Source: Stigmatella aurantiaca (GTDB lineage: Bacteria > Myxococcota > Myxococcia > Myxococcales > Myxococcaceae). Taken from it: 64,000 nucleotides of DNA. The translations under genes were made by a program, and so were the position numbers. Numbering within the stretch: position 1 is the first letter of the stretch; each line of letters starts with the position of its first letter. The stretch is taken from contig NZ_FOAP01000011.1 of assembly GCF_900109545.1 (NCBI RefSeq), positions 1 through 64,000 of the forward strand, in the 5' to 3' direction. Below, piece by piece: positions 51,761 to 55,942 of the stretch. The notes under the pieces are model-generated. The model was not told the origin of the DNA and ran no database searches. It saw nothing but the letters and a program-made list of their open reading frames with translations.

Positions 51761-54700
51761 TCAACGCGGGGGTTCTTCGAGAAGAACGTGGACGTTGGTC
51801 CCACTGAAGCCGAATGCGCTCACCCCTGCAATGCGCCTCTCATCTCCGCGCGGTAGCCAAGCCACCGGGGTGTCGGCCACCCGTACAGGGAACCGCTCCC
51901 AGGCGATGTGCGGGTTGGGCTTGCGGAAGTGCAGATTCGCCGGGACGGTCCCGTGCTGGAAGACAAGCGCTACCTTGATGAGGCTGGTAACGCCAGCGCA
52001 CGCCTCGGTATGGCCGATGTTGCCCTTGACCGCGCCCAGGAGAAGCGGCCGCGCGGGGTCGCGGCCCTCGCTCAGCACTTCACCCAGGGCATGGACCTCG
52101 ATGGGATCACCCAGGGGTGTGCCTGTCCCGTGCGTCTCGACATAGCCCACCTCAGCGGCCGGGACGCGTGCGTGAGCCAACGCCTGCTGGATCACCGCTC
52201 GCTGGGCGCGGCCGTTGGGCGCGGTCAGGCCATTGCTGCGCCCATCATGGTTGCTCGCCGAGCCGCGAATGAGCGCGTAGATGCGATCGCGATCCCTCAG
52301 GGCCGCGCCGAGGGGCTTGATGGCCACGACCGCGCAGCCTTCAGAGCGCACGAACCCATCCGCTGAAGCGTCGAAGGGCTTGCAGCGGCCATCCGGGGCC
52401 AGCGCATTCATGCGGCCCAGGGCCACGCCCGCGTTGGGCTCAAGGATCAGGTTGACCCCTCCGGCGAGCGCCATGTCGCACTCGCCCGCACGCACGCTCT
52501 GGCAGGCAAGGTGGACGGCCGCCAGGGAGGAGGAACAGGCGGTGTCCAGCGCGAGGCTAGGGCCGCTCAGGCCCAGGACATAGGAGATGCGCCCGGCGGC
52601 GATGCTGAAGACGTTCCCAATGCTCGAATAGGGGGTGATCCGGCTGAGGTCGTCCGAGTAAAGGGCCCGCGCCCCGTAATCGGAGAAGGACATGCCCATG
52701 AAGACACCGGTGCGGCTCCCCCGCAGGCTCAAGGGCGGGAGGCCACCGTCCTCCAGCGCCTCCCAGCTCACCTCGAGCAGCAAGCGCTGCTGCGGATCCA
52801 TCCCCTGCGCTTCGCGGGACGAGATCCCGAAAAAGGCCGCATCGAAGCCGTCAATGCCTTCCAGGAAACCACCCCAGCGGGGGACGACCAGCCCGGGCGT
52901 GTGACCCGCGCGTGCCTGAACCTCGTTCGCACGCCATCGATCCGCGGGCACTTCGCGGATGGCATCCACGCCATTCGACAGGAGCTCCCAGAACGCCGAG
53001 GGCGATGACGCGCCACCTGGCAGGCGGCACCCGATGCCGATGATGGCCATGGGTTCATCGCGAGCGATGGAGGGCCGGAGCCGGGGGGCGCGGTCCCTGG
53101 GCAACGTGCCGGAGCCCTCTCGGGAAGGGATGCGCAACTCACGCAGCATCCCCTCGGCGAGCTCTTCGATGGTCGGGTGCTCCCAGATAAACGTCACCGG
53201 AAGCGAGATGCCGCACATCGCCGCGAGGCGCTTCTGCAGCAGGACGGTGCTCAGGGAGTCCATCCCCAGGGTGCGCAGGGGCTCTCGCCGCGGCAGCGAC
53301 GCGCTGTCGCGCCGGAGCAGCGCCGCGAGCTCGCCGCGGATCCGCTCCTCGAGGAGTGCCCGCTGCTCTTCGAGAGGGAGAGAAGCCTGGAGCGCCTCGA
53401 GCACGCCGCCCGGCGCTGGCTCTGCAGGTGCACCAGTCGGCTGGACCTGGAGCTCGCTGTCGCGCAGGTCGACGACGATCGCCCCCACGTGCGTGTCGGC
53501 TTCCACGTAGCGGAGGGCCTCGCCTACCTCCGAGGCAGGGAAGGTCCGATCGAGCCGCGGCCGGTAGACGCCCCCCTCCGCGAGTTCTGCCACCTCGCGC
53601 AGCAAGGCGCTGACGAGCCGCGGGCGGCTGGACATCATTCCGTGCAGATCCACCAGGGTGAAGCTGAGCCCACGCAGGAAGGGCCTGAGCCCGAGCGTGT
53701 CGTCCGCCCGGGCGTCGCGCGTGTCCAGCTCGATGAATCGTCCCCCAGGCCGCAGGAGTTCCAGGTTCGCGGGGTGGAACGCTCCCCCTGGAGCATTCAG
53801 GAGTACATCGACTCCCTCGCCGCCCGTGTGCTGGCGCACCTCGTCTGCGAAGGTTGGCGAGCGGGGGGCCATCGCGCGCGAGGCACCCAGGGCGCGCAGG
53901 TGCTCGCGCGTGGCCTCGCTGCCTGCCGTGGCAAACACCTCCGCCCCGCGGTGACGGGCAGCTTGCAGCGCGGCCAGCCCCACTCCGTCGCTGGCCGCGT
54001 GGATAAGCAGGCGCTCTCCCCTCTGAAGCCCGGCAGCGTGCACCAGCGCGTAGTGAGCGAGCACGTGGGGCGCGGGAAGCGCCGCGGCCTCCTCCACCGT
54101 CAGGGTGCTCGGCTTGGATACGGCCAGCAGCTCGGGGACACACACATGACTAGCGAGGCAGCCAGGGAAGACGGTGATGACCTCGTCCCCCTCCTTGAAG
54201 CGGGTGACGCCTTCTCCGATGGCAGTGACCCGGCCACAGCACCCGCTGCCAGGCCCAGCGCTCCGCAGGACGTCTTGCAAGCCGAGGCCTGCCGCGAGGA
54301 TCTGGAGCCGGATCTCTCCCGGTCCCGGCTCCTGAGGCTTGGCGCGCCTCCAGGCCATGCTCTCGAACCCGCGCGAACCGTCACCTTCGAGGACGAAACA
54401 CCCTGCTCCCGGCCCCGCGCCCCCCAGGAGCTCGTCCTTGAGGATCTTCCCCAAGGGACTGCGCGGCAGCGCCTCGCGGAAGTCGAAGAGGCGCGGCACC
54501 TCATAGGCGGCCAACCGTCCCTGACAATGCCGCACGAGAGAGACCTCGTCGCAACCCTCCCCCGCCACGATCACGGCCTTGACCACCTGACCGAGCCCTG
54601 GCGCGTGGACCCCAAGGACGACGGCCTCGCGCACCAGGGGATGATCGAGCAGCACGGCCTCGACGTTCCTGGGGTCAACCTTGTAGCCACCGGTGTCAAT

Positions 54701-55942
54701 GAAGGTCTGCTTACGCCCGACGATGCGCAGGATGCCCTCCGGGCTCAGACAGCCCAGATCGCCGGTGCGGTAGCGGCCACCCGAGAACGCCGCGAGGGTC
54801 GCCTCGGGCTTGCCGTCGTAGCCATCAGGCGGCAGGACTGGGCTCGACACCAGGATGGCCCCCACCGCGCCCGGGGGGAGTTCCTGGCCCTGCTCGTCCA
54901 CGATCGAGACCTTGACGTTGTCGAGGCAAGCGCCCACCACATCGGGACGGAAGCTGCTGCCCGTGACGAGATTCGCCGCGATAGAGCCCGTCTCCGTCGA
55001 GCCGTAGAGCTGACGGATGGGGACGCCAAAACGTTCGAGGAAGCGCTGGTAGACCTCCAGGGGCAGCCGGTTGCCCGAGTTGAGGCTCCACCGGAGCGCA
55101 GGCAGGGTGGCTGGCAGTCCGGGCTCACGCGGTAGCTGCGCCAGGGCTTCATACTGGTGGGCCACGGCCGCGAGCACGCGCACCCCCTCGCGCTCGATCA
55201 ATGCCAGGGCCTCCTTACACCGGGCGGCGAAGGGCAGCTCCATCTGCTCGCCCCCCTCACTGCGGGGAGCCAGAAGGACCAGCGTGGCGCCAGCGCCCAC
55301 GGCGGCGAGCAGCCCATTGCCCAGACCATAGGAGTGATACAGCGGCACGAGGCACCCGACCGTGTCCTCAGGCCCCAGCGAGGCCGAGCGCACGAAGTTC
55401 ATGGCCTCGTAATGGAGGTTCTCCTGGGTGCGGCAGATGCGCTTCTTGTAGCCCTCCGAGCCCGACGTATAGAGGTAGAGGGCCCGGCCACCGTACTGCG
55501 CTCGAGAAAACTCGCCCGAGGTGTCCAAGCTGGCGCCGCCATCAGGGAGGGCGACGTCCGAGACGGCACGCACGGCCGCCTCCAGCCCGCAGCGAGCGAG
55601 GGCCTGCCGGCACCGCTCCGCCTGGGACTGCGTGGTCACGACGAGGCGCGGCCGGGCATCGGAGAAGTAGCGGACGAGGCCATCATCGGCGAGCTGAGGG
55701 CTCAGCGGCAGGATCACGCACCCACGCTTGGCCGCAGCGAAGAACGCCACGACGAACATGGGGTTGTTGTCCAGGACCAGGGACACGCAGTCCGAGCGCT
55801 CAAGGCCTGCAGTGGCGAACTCGGCGGCAAAGCCCTCGACGCCACGCAGCAGCCGGCCGTAGCTGATGCGCGTGGCGCCATAGACGAGCGCCGTGCTGCT
55901 GGGCGCCGCACGTGCCGCGCGGTGGAGGAGTTCGTAGAGCAT
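51761..55942 (-). CDS. PKS starter protein: acyl/CoA-ligase - enoylreductase - ACP - ketosynthase
   Basis: A 1393-residue type I PKS protein. Adenylation/ligase about 10-505: [10 protein letters not shown] (158-167), [14 protein letters not shown], and catalytic lysine in SPLGKILK (about 500). Enoylreductase about 515-855, NADPH loop [18 protein letters not shown] with LGMDSL (Ser about 894). Ketosynthase about 965-1393: TACSSS Cys1136, HGTGTP, NIGHTE. It ends at [11 protein letters not shown], with no KS-AT linker or AT. The order matches the loading part of rapamycin and FK506 synthases, where the ER reduces the activated acid. Last gene of the operon. Confidence 0.9.

Follow-up and report, generated by a model that had tools for sequence, protein, structure and literature searches.

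The window examined here, the first 64,000 nucleotides of contig NZ_FOAP01000011.1 (C11) of Stigmatella aurantiaca, contains most of a small polyketide synthase (PKS) operon, p9-p13 (minus strand, 69898 to 51761), the last gene of which, p13 (open reading frame (ORF) 51761-55942, minus strand, 1393 aa, ATG start), encodes an acid-activating ligase, an enoylreductase (ER)-like domain, an acyl carrier protein (ACP) and a ketosynthase (KS) that is not followed by an acyltransferase (AT). Comparison with related genomes suggests that p13 is probably, though far from certainly, the starter-loading subunit of this self-contained operon, with its KS condensing in trans on p9, the product of the first operon gene. 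The ligase-ER-ACP-KS protein and an AT-dehydratase (DH)-ER-ketoreductase (KR)-ACP unit would then constitute one module split between KS and AT, with the KS half at the end of the operon and the AT half at its beginning.

In Pfam searches the domains of p13 follow each other as AMP-binding (residues 7-368), AMP-binding_C (427-499), ADH/ER (540-824), PP-binding (866-930) and KS (963-1339). The ligase domain (aa 7-499; 54446..55924, on the minus strand like all features of the operon) is of the CoA-ligase type, and its nearest relatives in the PDB, oxalyl-, feruloyl- and malonyl-CoA ligases, do not name the acid that is activated. The ACP (aa 866-930; 53153..53347) carries the motif GMDSL, and the KS (aa 963-1339; 51926..53056) retains DTACSSS, ETHGTGT and NIGH, thus the Cys and both His, in an alignment of the 12 KS at the locus. 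Behind the KS, the model for the KS C-terminal extension is matched over positions 1-47 of 111 only (51767..51919), and the protein stops 10 residues after the GTN motif. The preliminary description was accurate with respect to the ligase-ER-ACP order and the terminal, AT-less KS with its catalytic residues, while the 11 residues it counted after GTN are 10.

The ratio of nonsynonymous to synonymous substitution rates (dN/dS, Nei-Gojobori), determined against the orthologs in a genome of the same genus (G036), is 0.151 for the ligase, 0.339 for the ER, 0.217 for the ACP and 0.156 for the KS of p13, and 0.155 and 0.133 for the KS of p9 and p10, respectively. The KS of p13 and p9 are both kept by purifying selection and are equally constrained, whereas the p13 ER (aa 540-824; 53471..54325) is kept less well and is the fastest-evolving catalytic domain of the protein. 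Compared with G036, the ER lacks approximately 15 residues near the domain start, leaving a shortened loop, with the NADPH-site region present, and it has T in a GK motif where several other ERs have K (G036 has K, Sulfidibacter corallicola Q), a lysine which we take to be the catalytic residue. High dN/dS, short loop and the K to T exchange make reduction of the starter uncertain.

The abrupt end of p13 is not an isolated feature of one assembly. The ortholog in G036 (1411 aa, roughly 79% along the part common to both proteins) ends in EEPPRGYVP and the one in S. corallicola (52%), a member of the phylum Acidobacteria (PMC8841776), in EQIPPR, and all three proteins stop at the same point, such that the end point of the KS is common to three species of two phyla. 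No convincing AT remnant was detected 3' of the p13 stop in any frame in the window, G036 or Sulfidibacter (best E value 0.03, all others above 0.1). As the genome is a draft assembly of 61 contigs, an assembly error or frameshift that disrupts what is really one KS-AT protein could be considered, but with two orthologs showing the identical stop site, one of them from a complete chromosome, and the downstream AT absent from every frame of three genomes, such an artefact is improbable in the extreme. A frameshift near 51761-51800 joining the KS to an AT, which had been named as an observation that would refute the split, is rejected, because behind the stop there is no convincing AT similarity to join in any of the three genomes.

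Such an ending is also rare. Among 149 distinct full-length KS from 143 loci, a biased sample as the loci were chosen by likeness to p13 or its neighbours, only p13 and its two orthologs (3/149) run into a stop within 60 aa after the domain, and for 17 the AT is missing over a distance of 250 aa, in some cases perhaps because the locus ends there. In the genome of the window itself, an AT lies at most 1.5 kb downstream of 31 of the 41 listed KS matches and is missing for 10, with four partial KS matches (C8, C7, C2, C7) left out of this set; to judge from their scores, the length of their frames and their place on the contigs, the nine further AT-less KS look like FabF-type or PfaA/glycolipid-type enzymes, with p13 as the only modular one. 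As to the complete protein, one full-length ortholog was recovered among the 80 loci kept in the genome-contig search and full matches occur in 2/96 genomes of the family and 2/195 of the phylum, both times the window genome and G036, and in 1/396 and 1/7 genomes searched around Sulfidibacter, both times Sulfidibacter itself.

The counterpart of the AT-less KS was found in Sulfidibacter. On its complete chromosome, the p13 ortholog closes a set of four PKS genes. The opening gene of this set (3091306-3096597) encodes linker-AT-DH-ER-KR-ACP without a KS. This AT-first protein starts with VFEDPST, which aligns with ILEDSPE of p9 directly behind the GTNAQ that ends the p9 KS; its gene has a GTG start with GGAGGA ahead, and tblastn for a KS upstream of the gene gave chance matches only (best E value 0.19). 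Including the p13 ortholog, the line holds five KS, five AT, six ACP and one thioesterase, a tally that balances only if the KS of the p13 ortholog serves the AT-first protein. With one protein that ends in a KS and another that begins with linker and AT, the split of a module between KS and AT is, as judged from the domain organization, real in Sulfidibacter. When the AT-first protein was compared with 92 genomes of the family, the best matches were the p9 proteins of the window (1694 bits, 51%) and of G036 (1667 bits), followed at a distance by a third protein (1060 bits, 42%), and these two genomes are the only ones among the 92 that carry p13. Alignment and scores identify p9 as the ortholog of the AT-first protein, and as the same genomes carry p13 and the best AT-first matches, the pair of ligase-ER-ACP-KS and AT-DH-ER-KR-ACP is what has been retained in both phyla. 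Among 138 AT matches in the gathered loci, ten candidate AT-first frames were recovered, namely four cuts at a locus end, four in L039, where the AT is preceded by KS remnants or by scrambled sequence that we take for frameshifts, one weak candidate in L033, and the Sulfidibacter protein.

The split that the preliminary description had deduced for p13 thus stands for the ortholog cluster of Sulfidibacter with its AT-first partner, and does not stand in that form for the window, where p9 (C11:63230-69898, with the C-terminal part at 63230..64000 within the window) is a KS-AT-DH-ER-KR-ACP protein that starts with a KS of its own. The active site of this KS is intact, and p9 of G036 likewise has its own KS. 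An AT-first protein, which had been expected to the right of p13, was not found in the cluster of the window, and this absence, named beforehand as an outcome that would refute the split, counts against it locally. The second gene, p10 (59138..63229), encodes a KS-AT-DH-ACP module without KR, and both the p9 and the p10 AT show the motifs GHSVGE and HAFH, the latter of which we take to indicate a malonyl-type AT. No match to a discrete AT was obtained on C11, and with p9 and p10 holding their own ATs the system does not qualify as a trans-AT PKS. Overall, the operon counts three KS, two AT and three ACP. In trees of 20 and of 117 KS, the p9 KS stands alone with its G036 ortholog, and its origin as a copy of the p13 or p10 KS was rejected as it has no close relative among the 117. 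A Met codon just behind the p9 KS (C11:68564-68566) is kept in G036, preceded in the window only by a Shine-Dalgarno-like GAGG, and an internal start giving an AT-first product of p9 is possible.

In the trees, the three p13 KS group in a single clade (100/99 in the 20-KS tree, 0.998 in the 117-KS tree), which in the larger tree neighbours the first KS of p7, a protein of the adjacent p1-p8 line, together with an actinobacterial KS (0.961). As the p7 KS also takes its chain from a loading ACP, this position fits a p13 KS that accepts a starter. Among the other matches, G025 has a ligase-ACP-KS order without ER within a long frame, the Streptomyces ligase matches L037, L038 and L040 were discarded since the ER lies several kb from the ligase, and the pieces in L043 are not collinear with p13. 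A PKS cluster devoid of a p13-type ligase (L146/L147, G006:C1:9054051-9075000) holds the modules next closest to p9 and to the p13 KS.

We infer the following course of biosynthesis, in the order p13-p9-p10. The p13 ligase would adenylate a free carboxylic acid and load it onto the p13 ACP, where the ER-like domain may reduce the bound acyl group. The p13 KS would take over the acyl group and perform the first condensation in trans with malonyl set on the p9 ACP by the p9 AT. Upon full reduction by p9, either the p9 KS would rerun the module or the chain would pass to p10, with the HemN-like radical S-adenosylmethionine (SAM) protein encoded in the operon possibly tailoring the chain and the alpha/beta hydrolase possibly releasing it. 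While in Sulfidibacter the split pair is clean, in the lineage of the window the KS of p13 and p9 would share one AT-DH-ER-KR-ACP unit, so that p9 may run twice. That the two KS on separate proteins serve this unit successively, the p13 KS in a first round and the p9 KS thereafter, so that the KS engaged would set how many rounds are run, and that the complex forms at the surface of the KS-AT linker without docking domains, is put forward only tentatively; Sulfidibacter has the same pair without the second KS.

Several observations weigh against condensation by the p13 KS on p9. The intact p9 KS in the window and G036 would fill the KS-linker interface that the p13 KS needs, by inspection no docking domain is recognisable on either half, and only three p13 orthologs are known. 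The clade argument is modest also, as in BLAST comparisons the p13 KS is 61.5% identical to a KS of G006 and 60.1% to the Sulfidibacter KS. Alternatively, p13 would load the starter, its KS being dispensable or a transfer station, and the p9 KS would make the first condensation, with the split functional only in Sulfidibacter. The completeness of p9 as KS-AT-DH-ER-KR-ACP with intact active sites, the 3:2 ratio of KS to AT in the operon and the constraint on the p9 KS, as strong as on the p13 KS, are in line with this alternative. A dispensable KS should, however, have drifted; the p13 KS has retained Cys-His-His, and its evolution is as slow as that of the ligase in the same protein, unlike the ER, which argues against dispensability and leaves this alternative, with the split as a relic, rather unlikely.

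With regard to the line that p13 might serve, the operon lies only 415 bp from a second set of PKS genes, p1-p8 (C11, minus strand, 119177 to 70314). The preliminary description had placed p13 at the head of the line on its right, and the common strand as well as, in this genome, the vicinity of p13 to p8 could suggest that the starter bound to the p13 KS is passed to a protein of p1-p8 that begins with an AT. However, none of the eight proteins begins with an AT, and p1-p8 also occur in the genomes G038 and G079 with 88-97% identity (p8 of G038 aligned over the C-terminal 1037 residues only), genomes in which no ligase-ER protein, only ER matches, was found genome-wide at E<=1e-60, so that p13 does not occur wherever p1-p8 do. 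The p9-p13 block of G036 (75-87%) is inverted as a unit relative to p8-p1, such that p13 and p1-p8 are in opposite orientation. Moreover, p7 opens with ACP-KS-AT-AT, a domain arrangement reported as the starter module for soraphen, myxothiazol, myxalamide and chondramide (PMC10051162); both p7 ATs keep GHSxGE, the Arg and a (F/Y)ASH motif. As p1-p8 are found without p13 and possess their own loader, the line starts at p7 and p13 is not its starter; the assignment of p13 to p1-p8 is very unlikely.

A variant of this assignment would combine the p13 KS with the N-terminal ACP of p7 into the split module and draw extender units from one of the tandem p7 ATs. Indeed, this ACP has no KS ahead and both ATs keep their motifs, but G079 and G038, both devoid of p13, have p7 at 91-95% conservation, ACP-KS-AT-AT is known as a self-sufficient loader, and the p13 cluster of Sulfidibacter lacks an ACP-first homologue of p7. 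With p7 occurring independently of p13 in an arrangement that is a known loader, its ACP was rejected as the partner of the p13 KS, and a combination of this kind is hardly to be expected.

The loading modules of FK506, FK520 and rapamycin (CoA ligase (CoL)-ER-ACP) share with p13 the ligase-ER-ACP order before the first KS and the activation of a free acid, and in FK506 and rapamycin the loading domains are fused to a full first module including the AT. In contrast, p13 ends after the KS and its ER is weakly constrained. The FK506 starter DHCHC is made by FkbO and handled by a loading module with CoA-synthetase and ER domains (PMC6022917). In the window genome, 99.99% complete, no chorismatase of the FkbO/Hyg5 family was found (TIGR04444, E<=10), and the earlier designation 'rapamycin-type' applies to the domain order only. 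Venemycin synthase (VemG/VemH), in which an adenylation domain activates a free acid and a short cis-AT line extends it (PMC6941969), is similar in outline, but has a docking-domain junction and, as described there, neither a starter ER nor an AT-less terminal KS. In the myxobacterial ACP-KS-AT-AT loader, as also present in p7, the starter AT is separated from the starter ACP by a KS (PMC10051162), yet an acyl-CoA starter is loaded by an AT within one protein and no ligase takes part.

The limits of a polyketide module are still under debate, and the cut is now made behind the KS in engineering work. Keatinge-Clay and colleagues, in their updated definition, set the boundary at the C-terminus of the KS (PMC6941969, PMC10402262), precisely where the natural split of p13 falls; their definition rests on evolution and engineering, while here two genes meet at this point without a recognisable docking domain. 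Subunits ending in a KS are known from split modules of trans-AT PKS (KS/KR and KS/DH junctions), and are regarded as a trait of that class, whereas junctions in cis-AT systems are mostly ACP/KS (PMC9113145). The p13 system is KS-terminated as well, but is of the cis-AT type, and the missing half begins with KS-AT linker and AT. A natural cis-AT split between KS and AT with an AT-first partner and the halves at the two operon ends was not found in searches of the open-access literature, a weak negative. One cis-AT module would here have become two genes at the post-KS point, with the halves separate across two phyla at opposite operon ends. If the halves cooperate without docking domains, they would be a pair at hand for attaching starters to assembly lines, and with the two KS of the window's version one could test directly how often a module runs.

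The remaining genes of the operon, which is tightly packed in the order p9-p10-radical SAM (p11)-hydrolase-leucine-rich repeat-p13, lie between p10 and p13. The HemN-like radical SAM protein p11 (57726..59141) is 87% conserved in G036. It is followed by the alpha/beta hydrolase (56801..57715), the ORF of which opens at 57763 with the start at 57715 matching the G036 ortholog, and by the leucine-rich repeat ORF (55959..57005), also conserved in G036, with its true start probably within the ORF. The best NCBIfam match of p11 is STM4012, below the cut-off, and the leucine-rich repeat ORF weakly matches the STM4015 family, so that one PKS operon may hold distant counterparts of both STM4012 and STM4015, which are paired in a Salmonella locus.

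The p9 AT (C11:67394-68266) and the p10 AT (C11:60569-61507) are near-identical within the genome and very different between genomes, with the G036 pair behaving likewise; their dS between genomes is about 2 versus 0.5 elsewhere, which points to concerted replacement of both malonyl-type ATs. In the p1-p8 line, p1, p4 and p8 (L004:16487-19177, L004:29-8470 and L002:10314-15470, all on C11) contain three modules with broken ATs, in which GHSxG has become GKGVG, GHGVG and GYGAG and about 100 core residues are missing, so that some ATs must serve several modules. The p1 KS (L004:16487-19177), which precedes a nonribosomal peptide synthetase module, has lost the second catalytic His, with NLGQ replacing NLGH. 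Rfam gave no matches in 50000-64000 and no repeats were found in 51000-57000. Elsewhere in the window, at 44474-49975, a protein of 1833 aa combines Ser/Thr kinase, AAA ATPase, GAF and histidine-kinase domains.

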